DNA of 64,000 nt, taken from assembly GCF_022012395.1 (NCBI RefSeq), contig NZ_JAKLTQ010000002.1, positions 62,001 through 126,000 of the forward strand. Reading direction: 5' to 3'. The notes under the pieces are model-generated. The model saw nothing but the letters and a program-made list of their open reading frames with translations, had not been told where the DNA came from and ran no database searches. The stretch's first letter is position 1. Every line of letters starts with the position of its first letter. The DNA is from Arthrobacter hankyongi (GTDB lineage Bacteria; Actinomycetota; Actinomycetes; Actinomycetales; Micrococcaceae). Below, one piece after another: positions 7,054 through 61,610 of the stretch. The translations under genes and the position numbers were made by a program.

Positions 7054-7054
7054 C

Positions 7055-38805: not shown

Positions 38806-39882
38806 TTAGAGGTCGGTGAGGGTTTTGGGATCGTCCCCGTGCAGGGCGGCGGTGAGCAGCGCGGTCAGGTTCGCGTCGGTGACGGGCCGCGGGTTGGAGG
38901 CCGGGATGGCCGGCAGCGCGATGCGCACGGCCTCTGGGATGTTGTCTTCGGTGAAGCCGTAGTCGGCCAGCGCCTGGGGTGCGTCCAGGGTTTCACGCAA
39001 GGCCAGCAGGCCTTCCAGCGCACCGGCGGTGCCGAACGCGGCGGCGATGCGCTTCTCCGCCTCCGGGGCGGCGCCGGCGTTGAAGGCAAGCACGTAGGGC
39101 AGCACGGTCGCGTGGGTCTGGGCGTGCGGCAGGTTGAAGGTCCCGCCGAGCACGTGGCAGATCTTGTGGTGCATCCCGGACCCCGCACTGGCGAACGCGA
39201 CCGCGGCCAGGTACGCCCCGTACAGGGCCTGCTCCCGGCCCTCCATCCCGGCCGGATCGGCTTTCACTGCCGGCAGGCCCTGGTTCAGGGCGCGGATGCC
39301 CTCGGCAGCCAGGGCGGCATTGATCGGATCCGCCCGCGGCGCCCAGAGCGAGTCCACGCAGTGGGCCAGCGCGTTCAGCCCCGACGCGACCGAGAGTTCC
39401 ACCGGCAGGGTGAGAGTCAGCTCCGCGTCGTAGATGACCGTGGCGGGCAGGACGGCGTCGTCCACCCCGGTGGTCTTCCGCGCGGCCTCGGTCAGCCCCC
39501 AGACGTTGGTCGCTTCCGAGCCGGCATAGGTGGTCGGCACCGCCACGATCGGGATCCCCGTGGTCAGCGCGACCGCCTTGGCCAGGCCGGTCGTCGAACC
39601 CCCGCCCACGCAGACCAGCAGGTCGATGCCGTGCTCGGCCGCGGCGGCCCGGGCCTTCTCGGCCACCTCCACCGGCACGTGCATCACCACGTCGTGGTGC
39701 CACAGGGCAACCTCGATCCCGGTGGCCACGACCCGGGCCATCCCGGTCTCGAACTCGGAGGCGATCACCATCACCTTCTGCGCGCCGAGCCGGGCCACCT
39801 CCGCGGCCAGGTTTTCCGCGGCCTTCCCGGACCCGAACAGCACCCGCTGCCCCAACGTCACATGCTCGAAAGTCAATGCCAT
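38806..39882 (-). CDS. Maleylacetate reductase (copy 2)
   Basis: A 358-residue iron-type alcohol dehydrogenase-family reductase that converts maleylacetate to 3-oxoadipate. Nucleotide motif [31 protein letters not shown] and the [12 protein letters not shown] segment match copy 1 at 7590-8684. It lies two bases after the hydroxylase stop and ten bases before the dioxygenase, so the three genes form one transcript. 3-Oxoadipate would enter the beta-ketoadipate pathway, whose genes are not in the window. Confidence 0.92.
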
Positions 39883-39884
39883 AG

Positions 39885-41681
39885 TCAGTTGCTCCTGCTC
39901 AGGATGGTGGCCACGACGGTGCGCAGCGCGGCTTCAGGGTCGGCAGGCAGCGTGTGCGAACGCCAGCCGACGTGCTTGTCCGGGCGCACCAGGACGGCAC
40001 CGTCTTCGGCCACTTCGCGCAGCTTCGCCCAGTCGAAGTATAGGTCCGTGATCTCCCGGCCCGGACCGATTACCACGGTCTTGATACTGACGCCGAGCTG
40101 GTCGCTGACCTTCTGTGCCGCCGTCGTCCATTCCTCGCCGGTGATGCCGGTGAACAGCGTGAACTCGCCGTACGGGGCCAGGTCGTGGGTGGAGTACTTG
40201 CGGGTGTTGTCGCCGACCCAGGCGTGCGGCAGGCGGCCGCCCGGGTAGGTGGACGGCTGGTAGTAGAGCTCCGGATCGCGGACGGGGGCCGGCTTGGCCG
40301 TGCCGTCCCCGACGACGGCGGTGGAGAGGTACTGCTGGCCCAGTTCCACGCCGTGGGCATTGAACTCATAGTTCTTCAGCTCCATGGCCTCCTGGACGGC
40401 GGCACGCTTGGCGGCGCCGTCGGGCGTCGCGTCCTTGCGGGACTCGATCAGCGCGGCCATTTCCTCGGGCGACCCGGCCTTATCGATGCCGAGAGCTTCG
40501 AACAGCTTGCCGAATTCGCGGCCGGACTGGTTCGCGCGGGTGACGATCTGCTTGGCCACGGGGGCGCGTTCGGCCGAGTAGGTTTCCAGCAGTTCCGGAC
40601 CGGCCTGCCCCTTGAGCACGGCGGCGAGCTTCCAGGCCAGGTTGTAGGAGTCCTGGATGGAGGTGTTGGAGCCCAGCCCGTTGCTCGGCGGGTGCCGGTG
40701 CGCCGCGTCCCCGGCGATGAAGACCCGGCCGGACTGCATGTGGGTCGCATACATCTCGTTGTTGCCCCAGAGCGAGATGCCGGTGATTTCGACGTCGAGG
40801 TCCGGCACCCCGATCAGGTTCCGGACGATCTGGCGCGCGTCCTCCTCGGAAACCTCCGGGGTGCCCTCGTTGATGTCGAAGCCCCAGACGATCAGCCATT
40901 CGTTCCACGGCCGGACCATGCGCACCAGACCGGCACCGATGCCGCCGATATTGGATCCAGGCTGGACCACCCAGTACAGCACGGACGGGCGGTGGCCCAC
41001 GAGTCCGGCGATGTCCGCCTTGAAGGTGATGTTCATCGAACCGGCGATGTCCATCTGCCCCTCGTACGGCAGTTGCAGCTCGGACGCGACCTTGGAGCGG
41101 GCGCCGTCGGCGCCAATCAGGTACTTGGCCCGGATCGTGTACTCGGTGCCCAGCAGCCGGTTGAGCACGCGGACGTTGACTCCGTTGGCGTCCTGGCTGT
41201 GGGCGAGGTATTCGGTGGAGAACTGGCTCTGGGTGCCGCGCGCGGTGGCGTTGCGGACCAGGATCGGTTCCAGGTAGGTCTGCGGGATGTCGCAGTTCAG
41301 CGACGGCGAGGCCAGTTCGTAGTCCGCATGCCGGGCCGGGTGGTTGCCCCAGGTCAGGATGCGTCCGATTTCCTCGCCGGCGATCGAGGTGCAGAAGACG
41401 GTGTCGCCGATCAAGTGGTGCGGGGTGGCGTCTGCGAGCACCTGCTCCTCGATGCCCAGGTCCCGGAAGATCTCCATGGTCCGCTGGTTGGTGATGTGCG
41501 CCCGCGGGGTGTTCGCGGTCCAGCGGTACTTGGTGATCATGATGTTCGGGATGCCCAGTGAGGACAGGAACAGTGCGGCCGAGGCCCCGGCCGGGCCCGA
41601 ACCGACAATCAGGACATCCGTCTCGACGACGGCGGAATCCGGGGTTTCGGTCTCGGCGACCCCGTCATTGAAAATCACCAT
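39885..41681 (-). CDS. FAD-dependent phenol/resorcinol hydroxylase (TfdB-like)
   Basis: A 598-residue class A flavoprotein monooxygenase. FAD motif VLIVGSGPAGASAALFL is near residue 23, the DG motif is YLIGADGARSKVA, and the second FAD contact is VFIAGDAAHRHPPSNGLG. A C-terminal thioredoxin-like domain follows from ~430. Length and sequence style fit 2,4-dichlorophenol/phenol hydroxylases. With maleylacetate reductase and hydroxyquinol dioxygenase behind it, the best substrate guess is resorcinol (or a related dihydroxybenzene). The start ATG 41681 (MVIFNDG) follows GGAG; a longer frame to 41747 lacks support. Confidence 0.88.
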   Translation of the reverse strand: MVIFNDGVAETETPDSAVVETDVLIVGSGPAGASAALFLSSLGIPNIMITKYRWTANTPRAHITNQRTMEIFRDLGIEEQVLADATPHHLIGDTVFCTSIAGEEIGRILTWGNHPARHADYELASPSLNCDIPQTYLEPILVRNATARGTQSQFSTEYLAHSQDANGVNVRVLNRLLGTEYTIRAKYLIGADGARSKVASELQLPYEGQMDIAGSMNITFKADIAGLVGHRPSVLYWVVQPGSNIGGIGAGLVRMVRPWNEWLIVWGFDINEGTPEVSEEDARQIVRNLIGVPDLDVEITGISLWGNNEMYATHMQSGRVFIAGDAAHRHPPSNGLGSNTSIQDSYNLAWKLAAVLKGQAGPELLETYSAERAPVAKQIVTRANQSGREFGKLFEALGIDKAGSPEEMAALIESRKDATPDGAAKRAAVQEAMELKNYEFNAHGVELGQQYLSTAVVGDGTAKPAPVRDPELYYQPSTYPGGRLPHAWVGDNTRKYSTHDLAPYGEFTLFTGITGEEWTTAAQKVSDQLGVSIKTVVIGPGREITDLYFDWAKLREVAEDGAVLVRPDKHVGWRSHTLPADPEAALRTVVATILSRSN

Positions 41682-46566: not shown

Positions 46567-47112
46567 TCAGGCGAGCGCGGACTGCTCGCCGAGGGTGTGC
46601 CAGCTCCGGTTGTGGTAGACCAGCGGGTCCGGGGTCTGCTCCGGGGCCCGGGCCTGCAGGACCTGGACGGCGACGACGGTGGAATCCCCGGCCTCCATCC
46701 GGTCCACGATCCGTCCACGCAGCCAGATCGGCGCACCGGCCAGGACCGGTTCCCCGGTCACGAGCCGGGACCAGCTGCCCGTGTCCGCGAAGCGGTCGAT
46801 GCCGCCGGTGGCGAAGGTCTTGGCCAGCTGGACCTGGTCCGCACCGAGCAGGTGGACCACCACCGTCCCGGCCCGGGCCAGGGCCGGAGCGGCGGAGGAG
46901 AAGGCCGAGAGCGAGAACACCAGCAGCGGGGGATTGGCCGAGACCGAGATGACCGAGCTGGCGGTCAGGCCGACCGGCCCGTCGCCGGGGTCCGCGGTGA
47001 CAACGGCGACGCCGGCGGGATGGTTGCGGAAGGCGGCCTTGAACTGCTCCGCCGGAAGCATGTCCTCGAAGGCGCCCTCCGCGACCCGCTGGGCGGACTG
47101 GCCGCGGCTCAC
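46567..47112 (-). CDS. Flavin reductase, small component of two-component monooxygenase
   Basis: A 181-residue flavin reductase of the HpaC/HsaB type (FRNHPAGVAVVTADP, GLTASSVISVSANPPLLVFS, WLRGRIVDRMEAGDSTVVAV). It supplies reduced FMN/FAD to the oxygenase encoded just before it. The start is the GTG at 47112, overlapping the oxygenase stop (GTGA); the long N-terminal extension of the open frame lies inside the upstream gene and is rejected. Confidence 0.87.
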   Translation of the reverse strand: MSRGQSAQRVAEGAFEDMLPAEQFKAAFRNHPAGVAVVTADPGDGPVGLTASSVISVSANPPLLVFSLSAFSSAAPALARAGTVVVHLLGADQVQLAKTFATGGIDRFADTGSWSRLVTGEPVLAGAPIWLRGRIVDRMEAGDSTVVAVQVLQARAPEQTPDPLVYHNRSWHTLGEQSALA

Positions 47113-48308
47113 CGCTGCCCCTTCTCGATCAGCGAGAAGAAGACCCATTCGGCGTCCTTTGCCAGGCCGGAGAGCATCCGGCCGCAGGCCTGCAGGACCA
47201 CCGGGCCGGACGTCATGTGCTGGGTGCCCGCGTGCATGTCGCGGAAGAAGCGCTGCAGGTCCCCCTCGCGCAGGGCGGCGGTGGCAGCCCACTTGTAGAC
47301 GCTCATGCAGACCTCGTGGGCGGACCAGGTGGCATTGTTCAGGGCCAGCCGGGTCAGGGTTTCCTGCTCGGGGGAGAGCAGTTCACCGCGGTCCAGCATG
47401 GCCTCGTTGCCGGCCCAGACGTCGAAGACGAAGGCACGGGCCGAGCGCAGGGTGGCCTCGGCCTTGGCGTATTCGGCCGCGAACTGGTCGGTGTCCACGC
47501 TGGCGCCGGGAGCGCCGGACTTCTTTTGCGCCAGCACCTTCATTTCGTCCAGCATCCGGCGGCCGACGCCGAGCGCCCAGCCGGCGTGGTTGATCCCGGA
47601 CATATTGGCCAGGCCCATCCGGTACAGCGCACCTCCGTGGATGGATTCCTTGGTGGCGACGTTGTAGGTGTAGGCCTCGGGGACGAAGAGATCCTCGGTG
47701 CTGTAGTCGATGCTGCCGGTGGCCTTCAGGCCCATCACGTCCCAGTTGTCCACGATCTGCGCCTGCTCCTTGGGGAAGGTGAAGATCAGCGGTTCGCCGG
47801 TCTCTTCGACCAGCGCAGCGGTGTGGATGTGGCTGGCATGCGGCAGGCCCGAGGCGAAGTTCCAGGACCCGGTGAGCAGGTAGCCGCCGTCGACCTTCCG
47901 GGCGGTGCCCAGGCGGGTGCCCTGGCCGGCCATCAGGTGGTAGCCGCCGTCGGCGAACAGCTCCGCGGTGGCCTCGGCGCCCTGGTAGGCGGCGGTGGTG
48001 CCGGTGATCATCTGCAGCGCCATCACGGCCCAGCCGGTGGAGGCATCCGCATAGGCGAGCTTCTCGATCACCTCGATGACCTGGCGCGGCGAGGCCTCGT
48101 AGCCGCCCAGGTCCCGCGGGATGCCGAGCCGGAAGACACCGGCGTCGTGCAGGGCCTGCGCGGCGGCCTCGGTGAGGTGGCCTAGCTCCTCATTCTGCGC
48201 CGCCTGGGACATCAGCAGCGGGGTGATTTCCTCGATGCGCTCCAGCAGCGCGGGGATCTCGTCGCTGACGTGCAGCTGGCCGGTGGTTTCGGAAACGGTC
48301 TGGGACAT
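47109..48308 (-). CDS. Acyl-CoA dehydrogenase-like oxygenase component of two-component hydroxylase
   Basis: A 399-residue protein of the HsaA/HpaH type (acyl-CoA dehydrogenase fold, uses reduced flavin and O2). It shows GVFRLGIPRDLGGYEASPRQ, YADASTGWAVMAL and LTGSWNFASGLPHA. The gene after it encodes a flavin reductase with overlapping stop and start, which strongly supports the two-component hydroxylase assignment over a true dehydrogenase. It is related in fold to the partial gene at 2-1156. The aromatic substrate is unknown. Confidence 0.88.
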   Translation of the reverse strand: MSQTVSETTGQLHVSDEIPALLERIEEITPLLMSQAAQNEELGHLTEAAAQALHDAGVFRLGIPRDLGGYEASPRQVIEVIEKLAYADASTGWAVMALQMITGTTAAYQGAEATAELFADGGYHLMAGQGTRLGTARKVDGGYLLTGSWNFASGLPHASHIHTAALVEETGEPLIFTFPKEQAQIVDNWDVMGLKATGSIDYSTEDLFVPEAYTYNVATKESIHGGALYRMGLANMSGINHAGWALGVGRRMLDEMKVLAQKKSGAPGASVDTDQFAAEYAKAEATLRSARAFVFDVWAGNEAMLDRGELLSPEQETLTRLALNNATWSAHEVCMSVYKWAATAALREGDLQRFFRDMHAGTQHMTSGPVVLQACGRMLSGLAKDAEWVFFSLIEKGQR

Positions 48309-48413
48309 CTCGTGCTCCTTCGCCCGATGAATGTGATGTGCATCTCATCGTGGCGGAGGATTGTCCCGGCCGGCGCCGATGGCCGAAGCAGGCAAATATT
48401 TTGTCAGGCCGGG

Positions 48414-49382
48414 TCAAATTCCGGCGGCCTCCCCGCGCGCCTCGCGCGGGGTACGGCCGTAGGCCTGCTTGAAGGCGCGGGAGAAGTGCGCCGCGGAGGT
48501 AAAGCCCACCGAGGCGGCGATGGCGCCGACCGGCGCGGCATGCAGTTGCGGGTCCGCGAGCTTCTCCGCGGCACGGCGCAGCCGCGTGACCAGGATTTCC
48601 CGGCCGGCGCTGGTCTCCTCGGCGGCGAAGACCCGGGCGAGGTGGCGCTCGCTAATGCCGACGGCGCGGGCGATCCGGGGTGCGGACAGGTCCGCCTCCT
48701 GAAGGTGGTTCCGGATGTACTCCCGGGCGGCGAGCAGGTAGCCGGCCGCGGCCGCGCCGGTCTGGTTGCCGGTCAGCAGTTCGAAGAGGTCCAGTGCCGC
48801 GTCCTCCACCGGCCGCGGGTCAGCCGGAGGCGCCTGCAGCGCATTGCGGATGGTGCGCACCGCGGCCTGTGCGTGCATGGCGAACGGCAGGCCTGGCCCG
48901 GGACGCAGGACGCGGGGAGCCGTCAGGCCGGACTGCCCGGTGCGCTCCAGGTAGAGCTTGCGGGGCACCTCGAGGATGACCTGGCGCATCGCCGTCGAAA
49001 AGCCGTACATGAACGGCTGGTCCGCGTCGTAGAGGATGGCGTCCCCGGCGGAGAGGGTCTCGCAGCCCGCGGAATGGTAGTAGAAGGCGCTGCCTTCCAG
49101 CAGCAGGCACAGCGGCAGCGATTCGGCCGGCACGGTGCGGATGTCCTCACCCGAGCGTTCGACCACGTGGTCGTTGCCCCGGATTTCGGTGAAGCGCAGC
49201 CTCGGCAGCCGCAGGTTGCGCTGCGCAGCGAGCAGTCCGTCGGCAGCCAGGGTGCGGCAGCTCAGCCCGATCAGCGAACGCTTGTTGTAGTCCTCCCAGA
49301 GGGGAAGCCGCTCCTGCCGGGGCACCCGGACGGTGGAGAAAGCGGTCGCCACGGCATTGGCGGATGCTGTCGCAAGGCCCAA
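48414..49382 (-). CDS. AraC-family regulator of the two-component hydroxylase operon
   Basis: A 322-residue regulator with an AraC-binding-like sensor domain and a C-terminal double helix-turn-helix (APRIARAVGISERHLARVFA, IAASVGFTSAAHFSRAFKQA). The start is TTG 49382, six bases after AAGGAG. It lies upstream of and in the same direction as the oxygenase operon. It is paralogous to the AraC protein at 41929-42894. Confidence 0.87.
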   Translation of the reverse strand: MGLATASANAVATAFSTVRVPRQERLPLWEDYNKRSLIGLSCRTLAADGLLAAQRNLRLPRLRFTEIRGNDHVVERSGEDIRTVPAESLPLCLLLEGSAFYYHSAGCETLSAGDAILYDADQPFMYGFSTAMRQVILEVPRKLYLERTGQSGLTAPRVLRPGPGLPFAMHAQAAVRTIRNALQAPPADPRPVEDAALDLFELLTGNQTGAAAAGYLLAAREYIRNHLQEADLSAPRIARAVGISERHLARVFAAEETSAGREILVTRLRRAAEKLADPQLHAAPVGAIAASVGFTSAAHFSRAFKQAYGRTPREARGEAAGI

Positions 49383-51272: not shown

Positions 51273-52040
51273 ATGCCCAAAGCCGAGACCTCGCCCGTGG
51301 AGTCCGTGGACCGCGCGCTGCTCCTGCTCCTGCTGATGCGCGAGCGCGGACCTGTTTCGGTCAAGACGGCGGCGGAGCATCTGGCCGTGGCCCCTTCCAC
51401 GGCCCACCGGCTGCTGTCCGCGCTGGCCTTCCGCGGCTTTGTCAGCCAGGACCGCGAACGGCGTTACCGGCTGGGTCCGGCGCTGATGGACCGCTCCATG
51501 GAACCGTTTTCGATCAGCAGGCTCCGTGAATACGCCCGCGGTCCGCTGTTGGAACTGCACAGCCGGTTGGGCGAAACAGTGCAGCTGATGGTCCTGCGCG
51601 GAGGCAATATCCAGTTTATCGACGGCGTGGAATCGGAATCCTCGCTGCGGGTGGGCATGCGGATCGGAGACCAGATGCCCGCCTTTGTTTCCGCCGGGGG
51701 CAAGGCGATCCTGGCGCAGCTGAGCAATGCCGAGCTTGAGGAGCTCTACCGTAACGGTCTGCCGGCCTGGCCCACCAGCCGGATTACCACGATGGCGATG
51801 CTCAAACGCAGCATGACCAAGGTGCGTCGGGCCGAATTCGGCACCAATTTCGAAGAGACCGAGCAGGGGGTGTCCGGCGTTGGCGTGAGCATTGGCGATG
51901 TGACCGGCCGTCCGGTGGCCGCCGTGACGGTGGCGACGCCGAGCATCCGCTTCCGCCGGGTGGACATGGCCGTGCATGTGGCGGCGCTGAGGCAGGCGGC
52001 GGCCAGCATCGAGGAGCGGATCGCGCAGGCGTCGCGGTAG
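51273..52040 (+). CDS. IclR-family regulator of the hpe-like operon
   Basis: A 255-residue regulator. The winged helix is at ~10-65 (SVDRALLLLLLMRERGPVSV, AVAPSTAHRLLSALAFRGFV), followed by an IclR effector domain (RIGDQMPAFVSAGGKAILAQ, GVSGVGVSIGDV). It is convergent with the hpe-like operon: its stop is 65 bases from the amidohydrolase stop, with a terminator between. Its effector is probably a hydroxyacetophenone or a product. The assignment to this operon is by proximity. Confidence 0.85.
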   Translation: MPKAETSPVESVDRALLLLLLMRERGPVSVKTAAEHLAVAPSTAHRLLSALAFRGFVSQDRERRYRLGPALMDRSMEPFSISRLREYARGPLLELHSRLGETVQLMVLRGGNIQFIDGVESESSLRVGMRIGDQMPAFVSAGGKAILAQLSNAELEELYRNGLPAWPTSRITTMAMLKRSMTKVRRAEFGTNFEETEQGVSGVGVSIGDVTGRPVAAVTVATPSIRFRRVDMAVHVAALRQAAASIEERIAQASR

Positions 52041-52062
52041 GGCGGGCCGTTCCGGCAGCACT

Positions 52063-52101
52063 GCAGGGGCACCGAGTCCGCAGCGGACACGGCGCCCCTG
52101 C
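52063..52101. terminator. Bidirectional terminator between IclR and the hpe-like operon
   Basis: An outer stem GCAGGGGC (52063-52070) with GCCCCTGC (52094-52101) encloses a second hairpin, GTCCGC/GCGGAC. It lies between two convergent genes. Confidence 0.6.
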
Positions 52102-52105
52102 TGCC

Positions 52106-52996
52106 TCAGCGCAGTCCCAGCAGCTTTACGGCGTTGTGCTTGAGGATCTTGGGCCGGACCTCGTCCCTGATCGGCAGTTCCGCGAAGGCGTCCAGCCATT
52201 TGGCCGGGGTGATCAGCGGGAAGTCGGTGCCGAAGAGCACCTTGTCCTGCAGCACCGAGCCGGCGAGCTTCACCAGGGACTGCGGGAAGTACCTCGGGGA
52301 CCAGCCGGAGAGGTCGATGAACACGTTCGCCTTGTGCGTGGCGATCGAGTTGGCCTCGTCCTGCCACGGCACCGAGGGGTGGGCCATGATGATCTGCAGC
52401 TCCGGGAAGTCCGCCGCGACCTCGTCCAGCAGCAGCGGGTTGGAGTAGCCCAGCTTGATCCCGGCGCCGCCGGGCAGGCCGGCACCCATGCCGTTCTGCC
52501 CGGTGTGGAAGACGGCCGGCAGGCCGAGCTCCTGCAGCGCCTCCCAGAGCGGGTAGAACCGTTCGTCGGCGGGGTTGAAGCCCTGCAGGCTCGGATGGAA
52601 CTTGAACCCGCGCACCCCCCAGTCCCCGGCCAGGCGCCTGGCCCGGTCGATCGCGTCCGCGCCGGTGAGCGGGTCCACCGAGCCGAACGGGATCAGCACG
52701 TCGTTGTTGCGTGCCGCGCCCTCGGCGATCTCCTCGATGCTGTTCGGCTCGTGCCCGAGCCGGGTCCGGGCGTCCACGGTGAAGACCACCGCGGCCATGT
52801 TCAGCCCCCGGTAGGTCTCCGCGATCGAATCCAGCGACGGGGTCCGGTCCCCGGCCCTGAAGTACTTGGCCGAGGCCTCCATCAGCGGCTGCGGCAGCGA
52901 GAGGTGGCCGTGGCTGTCCGCCTCGACATGCACGTGCATGTCGACCGCGGCCAGCGACGCGACGTCCAGCGCCGGTTCGTAGCGCACCGGTGCCAC
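52106..52996 (-). CDS. Amidohydrolase-family (type 2) C-C hydrolase/decarboxylase candidate
   Basis: A 296-residue metal-dependent TIM-barrel hydrolase of amidohydrolase family 2. Metal motifs are DMHVHVE, FKFHPSLQGF, VFHTGQNG, IMAHPSVPW and FGTDFPL. Members decarboxylate or hydrolytically split C-C bonds of aromatic and keto acids. As last gene of the hpe-like operon it is the candidate for splitting the 3-oxo-3-arylpropanoate into an aromatic acid and acetate. The GTG start (52996) comes two bases after the ligase stop, with GAGGG upstream. The exact reaction is inferred. Confidence 0.8.
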   Translation of the reverse strand: MAPVRYEPALDVASLAAVDMHVHVEADSHGHLSLPQPLMEASAKYFRAGDRTPSLDSIAETYRGLNMAAVVFTVDARTRLGHEPNSIEEIAEGAARNNDVLIPFGSVDPLTGADAIDRARRLAGDWGVRGFKFHPSLQGFNPADERFYPLWEALQELGLPAVFHTGQNGMGAGLPGGAGIKLGYSNPLLLDEVAADFPELQIIMAHPSVPWQDEANSIATHKANVFIDLSGWSPRYFPQSLVKLAGSVLQDKVLFGTDFPLITPAKWLDAFAELPIRDEVRPKILKHNAVKLLGLR

Positions 52997-52998
52997 GG

Positions 52999-54342
52999 CT
53001 ATGCCCTCGCGTAGGTGAGGGCGTTCTTGTATTCGCCGATGGCAATCGTGCCCGGGTCCACGAATTCCACGGCGACGCGGACGCGCAGCCGTTCGCGGAC
53101 CCGCTCGCCGATCCGCCAGGCCAGGTCGCCGGCCTCCGGTCCGCCGGCTCCTGCGGGCAGTTCGATTTCCAGTGGAATCGGATCGTCGAAGCGGACCTGC
53201 TCCGTCCGTTCCTTGCGCAGCCGCAGCGGGCCGGCGATCTCGGCGGAGAATCCCTCCATGACCACGTCGCGGATGGCACTGGGAAAGACGTTCATGGCCT
53301 TGTAGATCAGCATGTCGTCGGTGCGCCCGATGCAGCGGACAACCGGTGCCGTCCGCCCGCAGGCGCATTCGGAGGTGGCGAGCACCTCAAGGTGGTCCCG
53401 GGAACGGAAGCGCAGTACGGGGGTGGCCTGGCGGGTGAAGGTGGTGTAGACGGCCTCGCCCTTGGCTCCCGGAGTCCACTCGACGATGTCACCGGTGTCC
53501 GGATCGATCAGTTCCACGTAGACGTTGCGTCCGGCGGTGAAGTGCATGCCGGGGCCTTCGGGGCACTCGCCCCACAGCCCCGACATAACATCGCCCAGGC
53601 CCATGACCTCGCTGATCCGGGTGGCGCCCCAGTCCGAACGGATCCGGCCCCGGATGGCTTCCTGGCCCAGCCCGGGTTCGCCGCCGGCGATGATGGTCCG
53701 TACCGCCAGTTCGCTCGCCGGACGTTCCAGGACCTCTGCGCACCGGCCGGCGAAGAAGGTGGCGAACGACGCCGTGCCAACGATCGTGTCCACCTTCAGC
53801 TTTTCCGTGATGGCAACCATGCGCGCCGGGGTCTGGCCTCCGACCCAGACCAGCGTGGCGCCGATGCGTCGGATCGCGTCCGCATAGGGCATGCCGCCGG
53901 CCACGAGTGGCATGCCGGTGGTCAGGGCCACCACGCTGTCCTTGCGGATACCGGCCGTGAAGAACATGTTGGCGATGCTGTCGGTCCACGCCAGCCGGTC
54001 TTCTTCGGTGAGGCCGAAGAAGACCGGAGCCCCGGTGGTCCCGGAGGAAGCGATGACCTGGCTGACCTCCGGGTCTTCCACGCCCTGCAGGTCGCCGAGC
54101 ATATTGTCCGTGACAGCCTGCTGCTGCCCGGCACGCAGGTCATCCTTCGTAGTGAACGGGACCTGGGTCCACAGTTGCGGCTCGGCCGCCCGCCGGGCGT
54201 CGATCCCGGCCAGCCGGGCGGCATAGAACGGCGAACGGCCGGCCAGCCCGGTCAGGAAGGGTGCCAGCTGGGCGCGCTGCCATGCCTGCAGTTCGTCCCA
54301 TGGCTTGGTGTCGAATTCCGGATCCCAGAGTTGGTCGGTCAT
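52999..54342 (-). CDS. PaaK-like acyl-CoA ligase/adenylate-forming enzyme
   Basis: A 447-residue adenylate-forming protein of the phenylacetate-CoA ligase group. Visible are the ATP loop IASSGTTGAPVFFG, VMGLGDVMSGLWGEC, and the C-domain VRCIGRTDDMLIYKAMNVFP with GEYKNALTY near the end. It could activate a carboxylated intermediate (aroyl-acetate) as CoA thioester, as in the known acetophenone pathway, or another product. It is seventh of eight genes in the operon. No thiolase lies in the window. Confidence 0.82.
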   Translation of the reverse strand: MTDQLWDPEFDTKPWDELQAWQRAQLAPFLTGLAGRSPFYAARLAGIDARRAAEPQLWTQVPFTTKDDLRAGQQQAVTDNMLGDLQGVEDPEVSQVIASSGTTGAPVFFGLTEEDRLAWTDSIANMFFTAGIRKDSVVALTTGMPLVAGGMPYADAIRRIGATLVWVGGQTPARMVAITEKLKVDTIVGTASFATFFAGRCAEVLERPASELAVRTIIAGGEPGLGQEAIRGRIRSDWGATRISEVMGLGDVMSGLWGECPEGPGMHFTAGRNVYVELIDPDTGDIVEWTPGAKGEAVYTTFTRQATPVLRFRSRDHLEVLATSECACGRTAPVVRCIGRTDDMLIYKAMNVFPSAIRDVVMEGFSAEIAGPLRLRKERTEQVRFDDPIPLEIELPAGAGGPEAGDLAWRIGERVRERLRVRVAVEFVDPGTIAIGEYKNALTYARA

Positions 54343-54371
54343 GTGTCTTCCTCAGTCAGTCGGTGGCTGCG

Positions 54372-55469
54372 TCAGTGCTTGTGGGAGTGGGTGTGGACGC
54401 CTTCGACATCCGCCGCCGTGGCGGCCGGGGCGCCGGAGATGCTGCCGGCGATCCAGCTCATCATGCCGGCGGAGGCATCGAAGGCCGGCTTGCGTTCCGC
54501 ATTGGACCAGACCGTCTCGGGACGGCACTGGAGCAGGACGAGGTTCATGCCCGGCGGCAGTTCCTCGTCGACGGCGAACTCGATGTCCTGGGGCGCGCGG
54601 TGGATCTTCTCGAGGCGCTTGCCCAGGGTGGCCAGGGCCACGACCTCGTCGTCGTCCAGGCAGAGCACTTCGCGGCGCTCTGCCGGCACGTCCTGGGGTG
54701 CATCTCCGCGCCGGTATTCGATGTGTTTGTGGCCCGGGGTGCGGTCCACGATGGCCAGCCCGATCTTGTCCACCAGGAACCTGTCCGGCGTGACTTCGCC
54801 GCCGACCACGGACAGTCCCAGCCCCCAGCTGGCCTCCAACACGATCTTGGACCGGTCCCCGCTGGTGGGGCTGAGCGTGAACATCACCCCGGCGGACCGG
54901 GCGCGCACCGTTTTCTGGATGACCACGGCCATTTCGACGGCGTGCGGCTCGATCTCCTTTTCGGCCAGATAGGAAAGCACCCGGCCGGCGAAGACGCTGA
55001 GGTAGCACTTGTGCACGTAGGCCAGCACGTCCTCGGCTCCTGTGATGTCCACCCAGGTTTCGAACTCGCCGGCGAAGCTGGCGCCCACCGAGTCCTCCGC
55101 GGTGGCACTGGAGCGCACCGCCACGGCCATGTCCTCCACCCCGGTGTCCCGGCACAGCCCGGCATAGGCGGCCCGGATGCCGTCTGCCACCTCCTGGGGC
55201 AGGGGCACCTGCGCCAGCCGGGCAGTGATGGTGCGTTCGGCGTCGTCGAACGCTGCCTGGCCGGCGTCCGGACCGAGCCGGCCGAGCACTTCGGAGGTGA
55301 ACTGCCGCAGGCCGGCCTCGTCCAGGTAGCGGCGGTAGGCGGCGGCGGTGACCGCGAAGCCCGGGGCGACAGGCAGTCCGGCGGCCGTCATCGCGGCCAG
55401 CCCGGCGGCCTTGCCGCCCACTTCGCGGACATCCTGGCAGGACGGGTTGCTGAATTCGAGCGTGTACAT
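54372..55469 (-). CDS. hpeI: Aryl kinase ATP-grasp subunit, HpeI-like
   Basis: A 365-residue PEP-synthase-N-domain protein, paralogous to 15075-16247: VGGKAAGLAAMTAAGLPVAP, VAVRSSATAEDSVGASFAG, AGVMFTLSPTSGDRSKIV, APQDIEFAVD. It should bind ATP and phosphorylate the histidine of the partner subunit encoded 28 bases upstream. It ends HTHSHKH, a histidine-rich tail; in the cre-like pair that kind of tail is instead on the other subunit. Substrates of HpeHI are 4-hydroxyacetophenone and acetovanillone. Confidence 0.85.
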   Translation of the reverse strand: MYTLEFSNPSCQDVREVGGKAAGLAAMTAAGLPVAPGFAVTAAAYRRYLDEAGLRQFTSEVLGRLGPDAGQAAFDDAERTITARLAQVPLPQEVADGIRAAYAGLCRDTGVEDMAVAVRSSATAEDSVGASFAGEFETWVDITGAEDVLAYVHKCYLSVFAGRVLSYLAEKEIEPHAVEMAVVIQKTVRARSAGVMFTLSPTSGDRSKIVLEASWGLGLSVVGGEVTPDRFLVDKIGLAIVDRTPGHKHIEYRRGDAPQDVPAERREVLCLDDDEVVALATLGKRLEKIHRAPQDIEFAVDEELPPGMNLVLLQCRPETVWSNAERKPAFDASAGMMSWIAGSISGAPAATAADVEGVHTHSHKH

Positions 55470-55497
55470 GGTCTGAATCCTTACGTCTCCGGACGGC

Positions 55498-57369
55498 TTA
55501 GCGGGCGGCCACAGCGGCGTCGTCGAGGTCCGTGTCCCCGGCGTCGTCTGCGTCGAGCACGACGACGGTTCCCGCCTTGCCGTCGATGCGGACCCGCTGG
55601 CCGGTCTTCAGCCGGGCGGTGGCGAAGCCGGTGCCCACCACGGCGGGGATGCCGTATTCGCGGCAGACAATCGCGGCGTGGCACATCATGCCGCCGATGT
55701 CGGTGATCACGCCGGTGGCCACGGCGAAGGCGGCCGCCCAGGACGGCGCGGTGATCGGGGCGACCAGGATCTCGCCCGGCTGCAGCAGCGGCAGGTCCTT
55801 TTCCGAACGCAGTACGCGGACGGGGCCTTCGACCACGCCGAGGGACCCCGGGATGCCGTTGAACGAATTTCCTGCCGAACCGGAGGCCCCGAGCCAGTCA
55901 TTGACGCGCTCAGTGGTGACGCCGTAGTTCATCACCGCGAAGGGGTCGGTGACCTGCTGCGGCGGGATGCCGTAGGCCGGCGGGGCGGATGCGGCCTGCA
56001 GGGCGGCGACGATCGGCTTGCGGCGCTCGATCTCGGCCTGCCAGCGCTGCTTGCCGCGCGCCGGCACGCCGATCGCCCACGCCTGCACGACGTCGGCCAG
56101 GACGGTGTCCAGCTCGAAACGGTTCAGGTAGAACATGTCGTCCGCCTCGGCGAGGAAGCCGGCGTCCACCAGGAACGCGGCCAGTTCGCGGGTCTTCTCC
56201 CAGAACACGTTGTGGGACCAATGCTCCACGTAGATGTTGTGCTCTTCGATGTACGGGAACACCTTGCGGGCCAGACCCAGCAGTTCGTCGAACTGCCGGG
56301 CCTCGTCCTCGGTCAGCAGCGCACGGTACTCGTCCACGATCTCGTCGCGCTCCTCGCGCAGCCGCTCGATCGGGCGGGAAATGTCCTCGCCGGCGGCCAG
56401 CTTGGCGGCATAGCGGGCGATGCCCTGCAGCGGCACGGACAGATCCGAGTTCCAGGTCTCCTGGTCGTGCGTGAAGCCGTACTCGGTGAAGTAGTTGAAC
56501 CACGGATGGCGGGCGGCCTCGAAATCCTGCAGCCAGGCGCGGCCGTTGCCGGATTCCTGCAGGCGCCCGCGCAGGACCGCGAACGGTTCCCCGGCGGCGA
56601 GCTCGCCGGCCAGGCCCAGCTCGTTGGCCCGGGCAGCGAGCTTGCGCAGTTCGTCATCGGGCCGGAAGGCCAGCACATCCACGCCGGCGACCATCCTGGA
56701 GATGCTCTGCTCGGTGATCAGCGGGAAGGCCTGCTTGCAGAACTGGAAGAAGGTGATGTAGCCGCCGTAGCCCAGGTTGAGGAATTCGAAGTGGTACTGC
56801 CAGATGGCGAAGAACTCGTCGATCAGCCGGTGGTAGTTCTCGATCACGGCCACGGAGCTGGAGCGGCCGCGGGCCTCGTCGACCACCTCGTCCGGGTCAT
56901 ATTCATCCAGCTTCGGGAAGGTGATGGAGCGCAGGGACTCGACGGCGCCGTCCATCTTGGTCTTCCACTTCCCGTACAGCTCGTCCCAGTTGGCGTAGTA
57001 GTAGCCGGCGCGCTGCTGGAAGACGCCCACGCGCTCCTGGATCCGTTCCGGATCGGTGACGGCCAATGGGGCGATATAGACGTAGCCGTTGACCACCCGC
57101 ACGTCCAGGCCCAGGGAAACCGGCAGCGCGAAGATGCGGGTGCTGAACGCCCCGGCGCCGTAGTAGACCGCTTCGGCGCCGATGCTGTCGAACGGGTGGC
57201 AGCCGCGGGACCAGTGCATGGTGTCCGCGAACCAGAACTGGGCGTCCTCATGCTTCCGGGTCTCCTCCGAGGGGACCAGGTAGTAGGGGTACATGGTTTC
57301 CCAGCCTTCGGCGCCCTGCGGTGCCTCGGCCTCGTGGAAGAACGGGAAACGGGAGATGTCCTGGCTCAT
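55498..57369 (-). CDS. hpeH: Aryl kinase phosphohistidine subunit, HpeH-like
   Basis: A 623-residue protein paralogous to 16326-18191. It has a central aromatic-kinase region (YHFEFLNLGYGGYITFFQFC) and a C-terminal swivelling domain with catalytic His564 in GGMMCHAAIVCREYG. Together with the ATP-grasp subunit it should phosphorylate the phenolic OH of a hydroxyacetophenone. The start is the ATG overlapping the HAD phosphatase stop (ATGA). Only the residue before His differs from the cre-like kinase (Cys versus Ser). Confidence 0.85.
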   Translation of the reverse strand: MSQDISRFPFFHEAEAPQGAEGWETMYPYYLVPSEETRKHEDAQFWFADTMHWSRGCHPFDSIGAEAVYYGAGAFSTRIFALPVSLGLDVRVVNGYVYIAPLAVTDPERIQERVGVFQQRAGYYYANWDELYGKWKTKMDGAVESLRSITFPKLDEYDPDEVVDEARGRSSSVAVIENYHRLIDEFFAIWQYHFEFLNLGYGGYITFFQFCKQAFPLITEQSISRMVAGVDVLAFRPDDELRKLAARANELGLAGELAAGEPFAVLRGRLQESGNGRAWLQDFEAARHPWFNYFTEYGFTHDQETWNSDLSVPLQGIARYAAKLAAGEDISRPIERLREERDEIVDEYRALLTEDEARQFDELLGLARKVFPYIEEHNIYVEHWSHNVFWEKTRELAAFLVDAGFLAEADDMFYLNRFELDTVLADVVQAWAIGVPARGKQRWQAEIERRKPIVAALQAASAPPAYGIPPQQVTDPFAVMNYGVTTERVNDWLGASGSAGNSFNGIPGSLGVVEGPVRVLRSEKDLPLLQPGEILVAPITAPSWAAAFAVATGVITDIGGMMCHAAIVCREYGIPAVVGTGFATARLKTGQRVRIDGKAGTVVVLDADDAGDTDLDDAAVAAR

Positions 57370-58241
57370 GGTCGGGCTCCTTGCGTCAGTGGAAGGGTGG
57401 GATAGAGCAGTTGGTACAGTTCGGCGACGTCGGCGACGGCGAGGTCGGGACGGGCGTCGCCCTCGAGGGTGCGCAGGTGCTCCCCGGTGGTGGCCCCGGA
57501 GAGCACCAGGGCGCTGTTGGCGCCCATGTGCCGGGCGAGCCGGATTTCCACGGTGGCATCGCCGACCACGGTGACCTCGGCCGCCGGCACGCCGAGCCGG
57601 CGCAGCAGGGTCTCGGCCAGCGCCGTGGACGGCTTGCCGAGGACCTGCGGCGTGGCGCCGGTGGCCCAGCCGATCGCGTTGGCGACCGCGGCCGAGACGC
57701 ACACCGATTTGTCCAGGCCCCCGTGGAACCAGGGCACGTCCACGGTGGTGAACAGCGGGGCGCCGGCATCGACGGCCAGGCTGGCGGCGTTGATCACCTC
57801 GGTGCTGTAGCCGTCCGCGGCGCCCACGACGACGACGTCGGCCAGCCCCGGCTGGCCGGGTTCGGCCAGGTCGACGCCGAGTCGGCGCAGCGGTGCGGCC
57901 AGGCCCTCTGCGCCGGCGGCGAGCACCCGGGCCCCGGGGTAGTGGTGCGCGATGTATTCCGCCGCGGCGCTGCCGGCGGTGGCGAAGTCCTCGTCGCGGA
58001 CGCCGATGCCCTGGGCGCGCAGGTGGGCGGCATATTCGGCAGGCGTCTTCTCCGAGGCATTGGTGCAGACGACGACGGCGTGGCCGGCCTCGTAGAGGGC
58101 CGCCACCAGGTCCGCGGCGTGCGGCATGGCCTCCCCGCCGGCGCCGCCGGCGCGCTTGGTGCGCATCAGGCAGCCGTCCACGTCCAGCACCCAGCCCCGG
58201 GAGCCGAGCACGGTGGCGTTCGCCTTATCTACGGCGCTCAC
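57366..58241 (-). CDS. hpeD: HAD-superfamily phosphatase, HpeD-like
   Basis: A 291-residue HAD (IIA/NagD-type) phosphatase. The nucleophile is Asp20 and the acid Asp22 (WVLDVDGCLM); motif II is VVVCTNAS, the lysine is in LGKPS and motif IV is VVGDATVE. It is the only phosphatase of the operon and should remove the phosphate after carboxylation. It is unrelated in fold to the HD phosphatase of the cre-like pathway. Overlapping ATGA junctions on both sides couple it to the carboxylase and kinase genes. Confidence 0.8.
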   Translation of the reverse strand: MSAVDKANATVLGSRGWVLDVDGCLMRTKRAGGAGGEAMPHAADLVAALYEAGHAVVVCTNASEKTPAEYAAHLRAQGIGVRDEDFATAGSAAAEYIAHHYPGARVLAAGAEGLAAPLRRLGVDLAEPGQPGLADVVVVGAADGYSTEVINAASLAVDAGAPLFTTVDVPWFHGGLDKSVCVSAAVANAIGWATGATPQVLGKPSTALAETLLRRLGVPAAEVTVVGDATVEIRLARHMGANSALVLSGATTGEHLRTLEGDARPDLAVADVAELYQLLYPTLPLTQGARP

Positions 58242-59710
58242 AGCGCTGCCTCCTGGGTGTGCGGTCGTTCAAGCGAGAATTTCGTGCTGCCGTCGCTGAC
58301 CGAGACCGAGTGCAGCTTCGGGCGGTCCTCCAGCAGGGAAAGCAGCCGCTTCAGCGATGAGGCGGGGGAAGAGGTCTTGGCCGCGTACATCGCGTCCACC
58401 TGCTCGGTCGGCATCACCGCGCGCAGCAGCAGTTCCTCGTCGCCGATGGTGGCGCCGAAGCGGCGCCGCAGGTCCGCAATGGTGACGTCCCCGCCGTCGT
58501 TCACCGGCTGCTGGCCGCGCTTGGTGGCCATCGCCCGGTCCAGCAGTTCCGGGTTCACCGGGCCGGGCAGCGGCCCGAAGTCTCCGCGCAGCAGGTCGAT
58601 CACTTCGTCGGAGATCTGCTTGTAGCGTTCGCCCGAGATCACGTTCAGGGTGGCCTGGGTGACGATGTACTGTGCGAACGGGGTCATCACGATCGGCCAG
58701 CCTAGATCCTCGCGCACGTGCACGGATTCCTCGATCACCGCGTCGAACAGTTCCGGTCGGCGGATCTCGCCCAGCTGGCGGCGGGTGGTGGACTGCACAC
58801 CGCCGGGGATGGTGTGCCGGTAGTAGGCCTCGTCGTATTCGTTCGGCGTGCCGACCGGCAGGTTCTTGATTTTCGCCTGGCGCTTCAGGTAGTCCGAGGC
58901 CCGGTCCATGGCGTCCAGGTCCACGTCCACGTTGTGGCCGCGGGCGCGCAGATTGCGTACCAACTGTTGGGCCGCGGGGTGGGAGGCGCCGTTGGCCAGC
59001 GGCGGCAGCGCACAGTGGATGGTGGGGATCCCCAGGTCCGCTGCCTCCAGGACGGTGATCGGGGAAATGCCGGTGGTGGTGTGCGAGTGGATTTCCTCCA
59101 GTTTCTTGCCGGACAGGGCCCCCTGCAGCCTGGGCACCAGGCTGCGCACGCGGTCCGGCGTCAGCAGCCCGGCAGGGTCCTTCAGGTAGATGCCGTCAAT
59201 GGCGGGGGAACCGTCGAGTTCGGCGATCTTCTGTACGAAGTAGTCGTCGGTGTGCACCGGGCTCGTGGTGTAGCACACACCGCCGATGACCTCATCGAAG
59301 CCCACCCGCTTGGCCATTTCCGCGGTCCGCCTGGCCCCTTCCATATCGTGCATCGGGTCGATCACCCAGAGCCGGGTGATCCCGTTGCGGGCCAGCAGGC
59401 TGAAAGCCAGCTCGAAGACCGCGTCGGGGGTGCGGTGGAAGGTGATGAACCGCTTGCCGGTGGTCAGGAATCCCAACTTCGTGTGCGGCATGCGGTCCCG
59501 TGCTGCGCGCAGCCGTTCCCACGGATCTTCGCGGTGGTAGCGCACGGCCGTGGCCAGGACGGTGCTGGAAGCCAGCTCGATGGCCCGGTAGCCCGCCCGG
59601 TCCAGTTCCGGCGACACGCCTTCCACCATCCGGGTGGTGACGCCTGTGGCACCCCAGATGCTTTGGTTTCCGTCCCGCAGGGACACATCCACGAGGTTGA
59701 TGTCTGCCAT
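58238..59710 (-). CDS. Carboxyltransferase subunit of a biotin-dependent carboxylase (pyruvate carboxylase B type)
   Basis: A 490-residue protein with the HMG-CoA-lyase-type TIM barrel (residues 1-290) and a following PYC-OADA helical domain. Motifs are VSLRDGNQSIWGA at the start, the carboxylated lysine in YLKDPAGLLTP, and the metal HxH in EEIHSHTTTG. Pyruvate carboxylases have DGHQS; here it is DGNQS, suggesting a different acceptor. In the Hpe pathway the acceptor is the methyl group of the phosphorylated acetophenone. The ATG overlaps the biotin carboxylase stop (TAATG). Confidence 0.85.
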   Translation of the reverse strand: MADINLVDVSLRDGNQSIWGATGVTTRMVEGVSPELDRAGYRAIELASSTVLATAVRYHREDPWERLRAARDRMPHTKLGFLTTGKRFITFHRTPDAVFELAFSLLARNGITRLWVIDPMHDMEGARRTAEMAKRVGFDEVIGGVCYTTSPVHTDDYFVQKIAELDGSPAIDGIYLKDPAGLLTPDRVRSLVPRLQGALSGKKLEEIHSHTTTGISPITVLEAADLGIPTIHCALPPLANGASHPAAQQLVRNLRARGHNVDVDLDAMDRASDYLKRQAKIKNLPVGTPNEYDEAYYRHTIPGGVQSTTRRQLGEIRRPELFDAVIEESVHVREDLGWPIVMTPFAQYIVTQATLNVISGERYKQISDEVIDLLRGDFGPLPGPVNPELLDRAMATKRGQQPVNDGGDVTIADLRRRFGATIGDEELLLRAVMPTEQVDAMYAAKTSSPASSLKRLLSLLEDRPKLHSVSVSDGSTKFSLERPHTQEAAL

Positions 59711-61095
59711 TAGTGCACCTCCTGTTCGACGTCGTTGCCGAGGTAATCGTTGAGGTAGTCGTTGAGCCAGTGGGTGGTGACCACGTTGCTGCGGTAGTCC
59801 TGATGCGCCAGGATCCGCCGCAGCAGCGGCAGCGAGGTGGTGACGCCACCGATCTCGAACTGCTCCAGGACCGAGTCCATCCGTTCGACGGCGGCCGTCC
59901 GATCCGGGGCCCAGACGATCTGCTTGCCCATCAGTGCGTCATAGAAGGGCGGGAACCGGTAGCCCTCATAGATATGGGAGTCCAGTCTGGCCCCGCCGGC
60001 GGCAGGCGGGCGCCACCGGGCCACGGTGCCGGGTGAGGGCGCCAGCGAGTTGTCCGGGTCCTGGGCCGTGATGCGGCACTCGATGGCGTGGCCGGTGAGC
60101 CGGATGTCGGCTTGGCGCAACGTCATCGGGTGGCCCAGGGCGGCCAGCAGCTGTTCGCGGACCAGATCCACACCGGTGACGGCCTCGGTGACCGGGTGCT
60201 CCACCTGCAGCCGCGGGTTGACCTCGAGGAAGGCCAGCTCGTCCCGTGTGACGTCGTAGAGGAATTCCACCGTGCCCAGGCCGACGTAGTCCAAGGCGTC
60301 GGCGATCTTCAGGGCGCTGGTGTGCAGCAGGGTGCGGGTGGCTTCCGGCAGCGCGGCGCAGGGAGCCTCCTCCACCACCTTCTGGTAGCGGTACTGGACC
60401 GAGCATTCGCGTTCGCCCAGGTGGACGCGGTTGCCGTGGCGGTCGCCGAGGACCTGGACTTCCACGTGCTTGGCGTCCGTGACGAACCGCTCCAGGAACA
60501 CGGTGCCGTTGCCGAAGGCCGACTCCGCCTCGGCCGAAGCCAACTGCCAGGCGTCCTGCAGCTCTTCGGGGCCGGTGACCAGCTTCATGCCGCGTCCGCC
60601 GCCGCCGTGCGCGGCTTTGACCAGCACCGGATAGCCGATCCGCCCGGCCAGTTCCCGGACCTCGGCCGCAGTGCCGGCGGTGCCTCCGGCGGAGACCGGC
60701 ACGCCGAGGGACTCGGCCAGGCGCCGTGCGGTGAGTTTGTCGCCGAGCGCTTCCAGCGCCTCCGGGGAGGGGCCCACGAACACGATGCCGTTTTCGGCGC
60801 ACTGCCGGGCGAACTCCGGATTCTCGGAGAGGAAGCCGTAGCCGGGATGGATGGCCGTGCAGCCGGTGGAGATGGCCGCCTGCAGCACCGCGTTCATGTT
60901 CAGGTAGCTCTCGCCCGGCCGTGGTCCGCCGAGCACGACTGTCCGGCCGGCCCGGCGGGCTCCGAGGGTGCTGCGGTCTGCGGCGGAGACGCCCAGGACG
61001 GTATCGTAGCCGAGCCGGTCGCAGGCCTCGATGATCCGCAGCGCGATCTCGCCGCGGTTGGCCACGAAGACGCGCTCGGTCTGTCGTTCCGTCAT
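59710..61095 (-). CDS. Biotin carboxylase subunit
   Basis: A 461-residue ATP-grasp enzyme of the AccC type that carboxylates biotin with bicarbonate and ATP. Visible are FVANRGEIALRIIEACDRLG, IHPGYGFLSENPEFA, the glycine-rich KAAHGGGGRGMKLV, and LEVNPRLQVEHPVTE with the catalytic Glu/Asn region. The length equals ordinary AccC, so no carrier domain is fused. It overlaps BCCP at its start and the carboxyltransferase at its stop, forming a three-subunit carboxylase (HpeCBA-type). Confidence 0.9.
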   Translation of the reverse strand: MTERQTERVFVANRGEIALRIIEACDRLGYDTVLGVSAADRSTLGARRAGRTVVLGGPRPGESYLNMNAVLQAAISTGCTAIHPGYGFLSENPEFARQCAENGIVFVGPSPEALEALGDKLTARRLAESLGVPVSAGGTAGTAAEVRELAGRIGYPVLVKAAHGGGGRGMKLVTGPEELQDAWQLASAEAESAFGNGTVFLERFVTDAKHVEVQVLGDRHGNRVHLGERECSVQYRYQKVVEEAPCAALPEATRTLLHTSALKIADALDYVGLGTVEFLYDVTRDELAFLEVNPRLQVEHPVTEAVTGVDLVREQLLAALGHPMTLRQADIRLTGHAIECRITAQDPDNSLAPSPGTVARWRPPAAGGARLDSHIYEGYRFPPFYDALMGKQIVWAPDRTAAVERMDSVLEQFEIGGVTTSLPLLRRILAHQDYRSNVVTTHWLNDYLNDYLGNDVEQEVH

Positions 61096-61610
61096 GCCGT
61101 CGCCTTGATGGCGAACAGCGGCTGTTCGAACTCCACGAGGTCCCCGTCGTTGACGAAGACGGCGCTGACCTCGCCGGCGGCACCGGCGCTGACCGAATTC
61201 ATCAGCTTCATGACCTCGACGATGCAGAGCACGGAGTCGGCATCCACGACGTCGCCCACCTTGACGAATGCCGGTTCGCCTGGCTTGGGCGCGCTGTAGA
61301 AGGTGCCCAGCATGGGGGCGGTTACCGCGATGTGCCCGTCCGGCAGGTTGGCGGCGGTAATGCTTGAGGACGCCGGGGCTGAGGCGGCCGCAGGTACTGC
61401 GGGCACTGCCGGAGCCGGGGCGGCGGTCCCGGCCTCAGGGGCGGCGGCCGGCACCGCGGCGGGCTGCCGTGCGGCTGCCGGTGCGTCATCGTAGTAGCCG
61501 CCGCGGCGCACCTGGATGCGCAGGTCCCCGTGTTCATACCGGAAATCCGTGAAATCGGTCTTGTCCAGCTGCTCGATGATGGCGGCAAGTTCTTCGAGAT
61601 CAATGTTCAT
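61092..61610 (-). CDS. Biotin carboxyl carrier protein
   Basis: A 172-residue AccB-like protein. It has an N-terminal helical and strand part (IDLEELAAIIEQLDKTDFTD), an Ala/Pro-rich linker (~55-92) and a biotinyl domain with Lys135 in VEVMKLMN as biotin site (consensus EAMKM). The ATG 61610 follows GAGGAGGT. It is the first gene of the eight-gene operon, whose overlapping junctions run down to the kinase. Its promoter is expected in the 140 bases upstream. Confidence 0.9.
   Translation of the reverse strand: MNIDLEELAAIIEQLDKTDFTDFRYEHGDLRIQVRRGGYYDDAPAAARQPAAVPAAAPEAGTAAPAPAVPAVPAAASAPASSSITAANLPDGHIAVTAPMLGTFYSAPKPGEPAFVKVGDVVDADSVLCIVEVMKLMNSVSAGAAGEVSAVFVNDGDLVEFEQPLFAIKATA

Follow-up and report, generated by a model that had tools for sequence, protein, structure and literature searches.

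A predicted ketone-carboxylating operon of Arthrobacter hankyongi from a separate lineage of Hpe-like gene clusters

The stretch of Arthrobacter hankyongi DNA analyzed here (64,000 nucleotides, positions 62001–126000 of contig NZ_JAKLTQ010000002.1, also termed C12, in a genome of 5.19 Mb and 67 contigs; hereafter the window) carries eight adjacent minus-strand open reading frames (ORFs) in the order C-A-B-D-H-I-E-F, whose products are of the same kinds as those of the Hpe operon of Rhodococcus rhodochrous GD02. With a probability of about 0.72, these genes are a complete operon for the catabolism of an aryl methyl ketone with a para-hydroxyl group, with 4-hydroxyacetophenone as the most likely substrate and acetovanillone as a possible one. 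In this reading, a ligase and a hydrolase were added locally to a six-gene core. Judged by its genes, their order, and the clades that they form, the core C-A-B-D-H-I is a lineage of its own, the third after Hpe/Acv, where H and I come first, and Xcc/Hac, and it evolved separately from both. The operon is of the same kind as Hpe, but it is not the GD02 hpe operon in another genus.

Gene content and predicted pathway

The genes are tightly coupled, with overlaps of 1–4 nucleotides at the C/A, A/B, B/D, and D/H junctions and gaps of at most 29 nucleotides at H/I, I/E, and E/F (Table 1). Because Arthrobacter sp. CAU 1506 keeps the six core genes in the same order at 70–87% identity (70% for C), the operon is not a chance array. 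An original prediction, made by a model from the letters of the window, had described eight coupled minus-strand genes for the parts of a biotin carboxylase, a HAD phosphatase, a two-subunit dikinase, a PaaK-like ligase, and an amidohydrolase. The gene arrangement and the domain assignments agree with this description. The operon had been given as 51273–61610, which holds for 52106–61610, whereas the rest is occupied by an IclR-family gene on the plus strand, convergent with the operon. The other adjoining ORFs that were scanned encode a YkcB-like transferase, a DUF2278 protein, and a RibD_C protein. C may instead start further upstream, at 61661. The E protein scores under the curated Pfam and NCBIfam cut-offs, with PaaK models and structures still as its top matches.

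The motifs expected for catalysis are in place. The motif TDIGGMMCH in H fits the catalytic-His motif T/SxxGGxxxH defined for such kinases (PMC12167813). The biotinylation motif EVMKLMN is conserved in C, D keeps the HAD motifs DxD, GKPS, and GD..E, and F has its His and Asp residues at the same positions as the hpe F protein. The HAD and amidohydrolase residues are assigned roles on the basis of their families.

The reactions, the substrate, and the regulation that we infer are as follows. The I protein would charge the His residue of H from ATP, and H would pass the phosphate to the phenol, giving a 4-phospho-ketone. A would load CO2 onto the biotin of C, B would move it to the methyl carbon to give a phospho-aryl-beta-ketoacid, and D would remove the phosphate. 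E would then form the coenzyme A (CoA) thioester, which F would cleave, releasing acetyl-CoA and 4-hydroxybenzoate (or vanillate). Regulation is probably exerted by the IclR protein. This predicted route fits the gene content, including the downstream genes found in the genome (a pobA-like gene beside pcaHG, and vanA). The pathway logic of the original prediction is therefore supported by the enzyme kinds, the kept catalytic motifs, the HpeF/CouO-type hydrolase, and the downstream genes.

Table 1. Predicted features of the operon region, with positions in the window.
Feature	Position	Strand	Basis
C, biotin carboxyl carrier protein (BCCP)	61092..61610	-	172 amino acids; biotin_lipoyl; TIGR00531 above cut-off
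A, biotin carboxylase subunit	59710..61095	-	Pfam Biotin_carb_N/CPSase_L_D2/Biotin_carb_C
B, carboxyltransferase subunit	58238..59710	-	HMGL-like and PYC_OADA
D, HAD-IIA phosphatase	57366..58241	-	Hydrolase_6/Hydrolase_like
H, dikinase substrate-binding and swivel (His) subunit	55498..57369	-	PEP-utilizers domain
I, dikinase ATP-grasp subunit	54372..55469	-	PPDK_N
E, PaaK-like AMP-forming CoA ligase	52999..54342	-	PaaK models and PaaK structures match best
F, amidohydrolase-2 family (Amidohydro_2), predicted CouO/HpeF-like beta-ketoacyl-CoA hydrolase	52106..52996	-	PF04909
IclR-family regulator gene	51273..52040	+	IclR_C and HTH_IclR; convergent with the operon
Duplicated segment shared with the CouO-like gene on contig C34	52112..53001	-	890 bp, 98.9% identical, 10 mismatches

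Comparison with the Hpe operon

The GD02 operon of R. rhodochrous is hpeHICBADEF (PMC9618137, PMC12167813), and the predicted route is modeled on the reactions demonstrated for HpeHI, HpeCBA, and HpeD (PMC9618137). The GD02-type reference used here comes from a Rhodococcus sp. JS3073 plasmid (L093), has the order H-I-C-A-B-D-ligase-F with an AcsA-like ligase, and encodes an I protein that matches the deposited GD02 HpeI (PDB 9GOJ) over its full length (780.8 bits). The window shares with the GD02 operon a dikinase of two components that contains the T/SxxGGxxxH motif, a three-part biotin carboxylase, a HAD phosphatase, a CoA ligase, and a CouO-like hydrolase. 9GOJ is also the best PDB match of the window I, yet a distant one (220.7 bits).

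The original prediction had equated the window operon with that of GD02, and the simplest form of this idea is an ordinary hpe orthologue that was acquired whole by another genus. The eight shared enzyme kinds and an F protein that is 63% identical to the L093 homolog over 295 residues would suit such a transfer. However, the window starts with C-A-B-D and not with H-I, its E is PaaK-like rather than AcsA2-like as in HpeE, and its core proteins are only 31–47% identical to the L093 homologs (A 47%, B 43%, D 31%, H 46%, and I 40%; the 41% for C spans 91 residues, the L093 C being shortened by choice of start). The window proteins also belong to a separate clade in the A, B, D, H, and I trees, with H and B branching apart from Hpe at a support of 100 in the Shimodaira-Hasegawa-like approximate likelihood ratio test (SH-aLRT). 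A tree in which the window B was constrained to group with the GD02-type rows was rejected by the approximately unbiased (AU) test (p-AU 1.75e-07). Whole acquisition of hpe is thus refuted under the models used and is very improbable, and the idea that the operon is simply hpe was dropped on account of order, identities, and trees. The prediction had also proposed that finding the pathway in another genus would extend its range. The genus is indeed another one (the genus group of Arthrobacter sp. CAU 1506), but the extension is not news, since hpe-like clusters outside Rhodococcus have already been reported (PMC9618137, PMC13101465).

A clade with the gene order C-A-B-D-H-I

The window B was scanned against 84,980 species by means of six peptide patterns, which gave 125 confirmed relatives; the best 80 were kept, and the 20 lineage loci below are drawn from these. 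Twenty of the 80 loci (L009–L028) have a B protein 61–87% identical to that of the window and the order C-A-B-D-H-I, which is seen in full in 19 (L022 ends inside H, leaving its I out of view). In the other 60 loci, B is 41–47% identical, and H and I precede C wherever H or I is covered; some of these loci lack A or D beside B. Members of the lineage are mostly actinobacterial (18 of 20), from Arthrobacter, Georgenia, Nocardia, Micromonospora, Microbispora, Micrococcus, Actinophytocola, Nocardioides, Corynebacterium, and Streptomyces. The two others are betaproteobacterial (Eoetvoesiella and Aromatoleum toluclasticum).

In each of the five trees, the C-A-B-D-H-I loci included fall into a single clade with an SH-aLRT support of 100. 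All trees were quick ones with SH-aLRT support and no bootstrap, and two of the lineage loci (L013 and L015) were left out. The B tree has 42 rows (38 chosen loci, the window, two clusters of the Aromatoleum genome G778 described below, and one outgroup on a very long branch; L086 is also a long branch). The H tree has 43 (36 of the 38 loci, two being too short, the window, a second H from the window, one G778 row, and four further H homologs), and the A, D, and I trees have 38 rows each. In the H tree, the C-A-B-D-H-I clade, the Hpe/Acv rows, the Cre-like rows, and the other H proteins of two Aromatoleum genomes are deeply split.

Narrower searches returned few members of the lineage. Among 148 related genomes (own included), four have a B relative at E<=1e-60, and two of these belong to the lineage, namely the own genome and G007, whose B gene shares its contig coordinates with that of Arthrobacter sp. 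CAU 1506. At the class level, 10 of 394 genomes match at 1e-80, with the own genome alone above 46% identity. Sixteen of 250 genomes in the family of Microbispora match, and only Microbispora itself is of this lineage. A plasmid search gave 17 records in which B is 33–45% identical, and by this measure none of them is placed in the lineage; three of the records were examined. One of these plasmids, pA of Rhodococcus pyridinivorans P23 (L094), carries at 1866–14171 a run of genes for a phosphoenolpyruvate (PEP)-utilizing enzyme, a dikinase, a biotin carboxylase, a carboxyltransferase (37% identical to B), a thiolase, and an annotated tyrosine-protein phosphatase, a run that may represent one more kinase-carboxylase lineage, with a different phosphatase. 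Another plasmid, pBAR1 of Sphingomonas bisphenolicum (L180), a species named for bisphenol, has at 572–11357 a carboxylase and HAD cluster (B 45%) together with genes for a Tm-1-like ATP-binding protein, a 3-keto-5-aminohexanoate cleavage protein, and a carotenoid oxygenase; no H or I is annotated in the stretch read.

Some members of the lineage may well be contained in published collections, namely in Fig. S5 of PMC9618137 and among the 52 of 836 clusters that are quoted as kinase-carboxylase in PMC13101465.

Comparison with the Acv, Xcc/Hac, and Aromatoleum clusters

The Acv system of Sphingobium SYK-6 (acvABCDEF, L068) has the same module of kinase, carboxylase, and phosphatase. It differs in the order H-I-C-A-B-D and in the lack of an E- or F-like match in the SYK-6 locus, and its proteins are 42% (C), 51% (A), 45% (B), 32% (D), 43% (H), and 40% (I) identical to those of the window.

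The homologs of A. toluclasticum are closer (C 50%, A 65%, B 62%, D 53%, H 64%, and I 52%). A search of Aromatoleum found matches in two of 17 genomes, and one of these, G778, presumably the EbN1 chromosome, has two separate clusters. The first (at about 196 kb) has the order C-A-B-D and neighbors that encode a flavoprotein (FAD_binding_4), a thiolase, and an AcsA-like protein. No H or I homolog was found within the 32 kb read around it, and its B is 44% identical to that of the window and groups with the Acv side of the B tree. Its gene content and a chromosome length that fits EbN1 suggest that its carboxyltransferase is XccC. The second cluster (at about 3.43 Mb) has the order C-A-B-D-H-I and a B protein that is 62% identical and falls in the clade of the window; it is surrounded by genes for an XylR_N/sigma-54 regulator, an AcsA-like ligase, a molybdopterin oxidoreductase, a thiolase, and transposases. 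H homologs in G778 at E<=1e-30 are found only at 1.87 and 3.43 Mb.

Neighbors such as those of the first cluster are described for the ethylphenol route (PMC10715001), and the xcc genes are said to cluster with hpeHI homologs (PMC9618137), which is not what was seen in the 32 kb around that cluster. The published ethylphenol carboxylase cluster thus appears to differ from the C-A-B-D-H-I cluster in Aromatoleum.

These observations bear on whether the window operon could have come from Aromatoleum-like bacteria by transfer of the 4-hydroxyacetophenone carboxylase operon (Xcc/Hac type) of the ethylphenol route. Such an identity was raised because A. toluclasticum is among the nearest betaproteobacterial relatives, and the Aromatoleum clusters indeed have the same gene order as the window and identities of 62–66% in A, B, and H. 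However, after the two G778 clusters were read separately, the close relative proved to be the second one. The first shares with the window a three-part carboxylase and a HAD protein in the order C-A-B-D; it differs in having no kinase genes in the stretch read, in its distant B, and in its grouping. Neither a flavoprotein hydroxylase nor a thiolase is encoded in the window operon or among the adjoining ORFs scanned. The Xcc/Hac identity was dropped, and such a transfer is hardly to be expected.

The second Aromatoleum clusters (G778 and A. toluclasticum) differ from the window operon as well. They are near a molybdopterin oxidoreductase gene, to which G778 adds the AcsA-like ligase and thiolase genes, and they have no F-like match; neither the scanned ORFs nor the flanks in A. 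toluclasticum include an IclR gene. No characterization of these clusters was found in the literature, and we know of no substrate assigned to that of G778. The two G778 clusters (L163–L166) are paralogous ketone-carboxylase clusters on one chromosome, both near AcsA-like, MMPL, and BNR-repeat genes.

Finishing enzymes and the duplicated hydrolase gene

The regulator, the ligase, and the hydrolase vary more than the core. In flanks of up to 10 kb per side (less at contig ends), all 18 actinobacterial loci have an IclR gene, 15 have an AcsA-like ligase, 10 have F, and only Georgenia EYE_87 has a PaaK-like ligase (57% identical to the window E). The two betaproteobacterial loci have no match to the IclR, ligase, and F probes in their flanks. 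In CAU 1506, the operon lacks F in the scored flanks and has an AcsA-like ligase upstream.

The F protein of Nocardia brevicatena, a member of the clade, is 86% identical to that of the Rhodococcus hpe operon despite the distance between the two cores, a sign that both lead to the same beta-ketoacyl-CoA as end product. HpeF is in turn listed as 95% identical to CouO (PMC9618137, Table 1). Because of these two similarities, it seems that the hydrolase was taken repeatedly from a hydroxycinnamate-type pathway of the host group.

A. hankyongi provides a recent case. Its genome has a second F gene on contig C34, with a 98% identical protein, and the nearly identical segment extends from the stop codon of E to one codon short of the F stop (Table 1). 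The C34 gene is located in a cassette of short-chain dehydrogenase/reductase (SDR), F, acyl-CoA dehydrogenase, and MaoC genes (neighbor families were judged by eye from translations). Since all nine other same-genus genomes searched carry this cassette, with an F 79–88% identical, C34 is most likely the older location. The F gene at the operon end is accordingly best read, on the strength of the shared segment, as a recent in-genome copy of a CouO-like gene, by which the cleavage enzyme would have joined the core.

A third F homolog (50–52% identical) is found on C12 just ahead of the window start (L185, 8821–9702), with neighbors that by eye encode CoA-transferase-like, aldehyde-dehydrogenase-like, and Zn-dehydrogenase-like proteins.

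Evidence for and against the predicted substrate

Several observations weigh against a hydroxyacetophenone operon as described above. The pobA-like match (420.4 bits) is under the NCBI cut-off of 538.7, and a scan for sigma-70-like promoters found no sites where 0.6 were expected; terminator-like sites are at chance level (5 against 4.2 expected). F was not seen in the scored flanks of eight of the 18 actinobacterial relatives, and F alone would also be expected for hydroxycinnamate breakdown. An SDR encoded near several Arthrobacter clusters was considered as a hydroxyphenylethanol dehydrogenase and rejected, as no such enzyme is named among the best 60 of its 643 PDB matches. The window H is 46% identical to the GD02-type HpeH and 43% identical to the Cre-like H of the window itself, and the H tree, which carries a long-branch warning, does not settle how the kinase clades branch at depth; the kinase by itself therefore does not reveal the substrate. 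Finally, no characterized member of the C-A-B-D-H-I clade was found in the literature, so activity is not transferable with certainty.

The same chemistry may alternatively act on another para-hydroxyphenyl ketone, such as 4-hydroxypropiophenone or one with another side chain. The equal distance of the kinase clade from HpeH and the Cre-like kinases leaves room for this, as do the molybdopterin oxidoreductase genes near the Aromatoleum relatives and the presence in G778 of a C-A-B-D-H-I cluster on top of one with ethylphenol-type neighbors. However, a CouO/HpeF-type hydrolase in the window operon and in the flanks of 10 of the 18 actinobacterial loci, together with the similarity of the Nocardia F to the hpe F, suits an aryl-beta-ketopropionyl-CoA, and a different ketone is rather unlikely. 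A hydroxyacetophenone is accordingly preferred as the substrate.

Other aromatic gene clusters in the window

A second two-subunit dikinase (15075–16247 and 16326–18191) is encoded on the plus strand within 13792–21470, with genes for a cytochrome P450, a ferredoxin-size short ORF, a ferredoxin reductase, and an HD-domain protein. By its gene content, this cluster is presumably Cre-like, with the kinase pair at 15075–18191, and it likely serves a 4-cresol-type catabolism by phosphorylation. The strain would therefore possess two routes of aryl phosphorylation, separated by about 31 kb. The CreHI-type kinases of 4-cresol catabolism resemble those of the operon in being PEP-synthase-like aryl kinases of two subunits. 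The operon H and I are nevertheless only 43% and 41% identical to this pair, which is next to the P450 gene, and the operon H is outside the Cre-like branch of the kinase tree.

Two minus-strand regions (37881–41681 and 47109–49352) encode an FAD phenol-hydroxylase-type enzyme, a maleylacetate-reductase-like iron-containing alcohol dehydrogenase, a weak intradiol-dioxygenase match, and an acyl-CoA-dehydrogenase-like protein with an adjoining AraC regulator.

Significance

Few aerobic pathways carboxylate an aromatic ketone. In 2022, the authors of the Hpe work stated that they were aware of no second aerobic aromatic pathway that includes carboxylation (PMC9618137, Discussion), although the Acv route is one. 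Acetophenone carboxylase is reported to be used aerobically as well (PMC4729919). The operon described here would probably enable a soil actinobacterium to degrade lignin-derived hydroxyacetophenones by adding first phosphate and then CO2. It is quite likely that actinobacteria and Aromatoleum have in common a deeply separate lineage of phosphorylation plus biotin-dependent carboxylation, one that conserves no genes beyond the six-gene core and recruits its finishing enzymes locally (a thiolase and an AcsA-like ligase near the Aromatoleum cluster, an AcsA-like or PaaK-like ligase and a CouO-like hydrolase in actinobacteria, and here the 890-bp in-genome copy). The copied hydrolase gene offers an unusually direct look at a catabolic operon completed by the duplication of a single gene.

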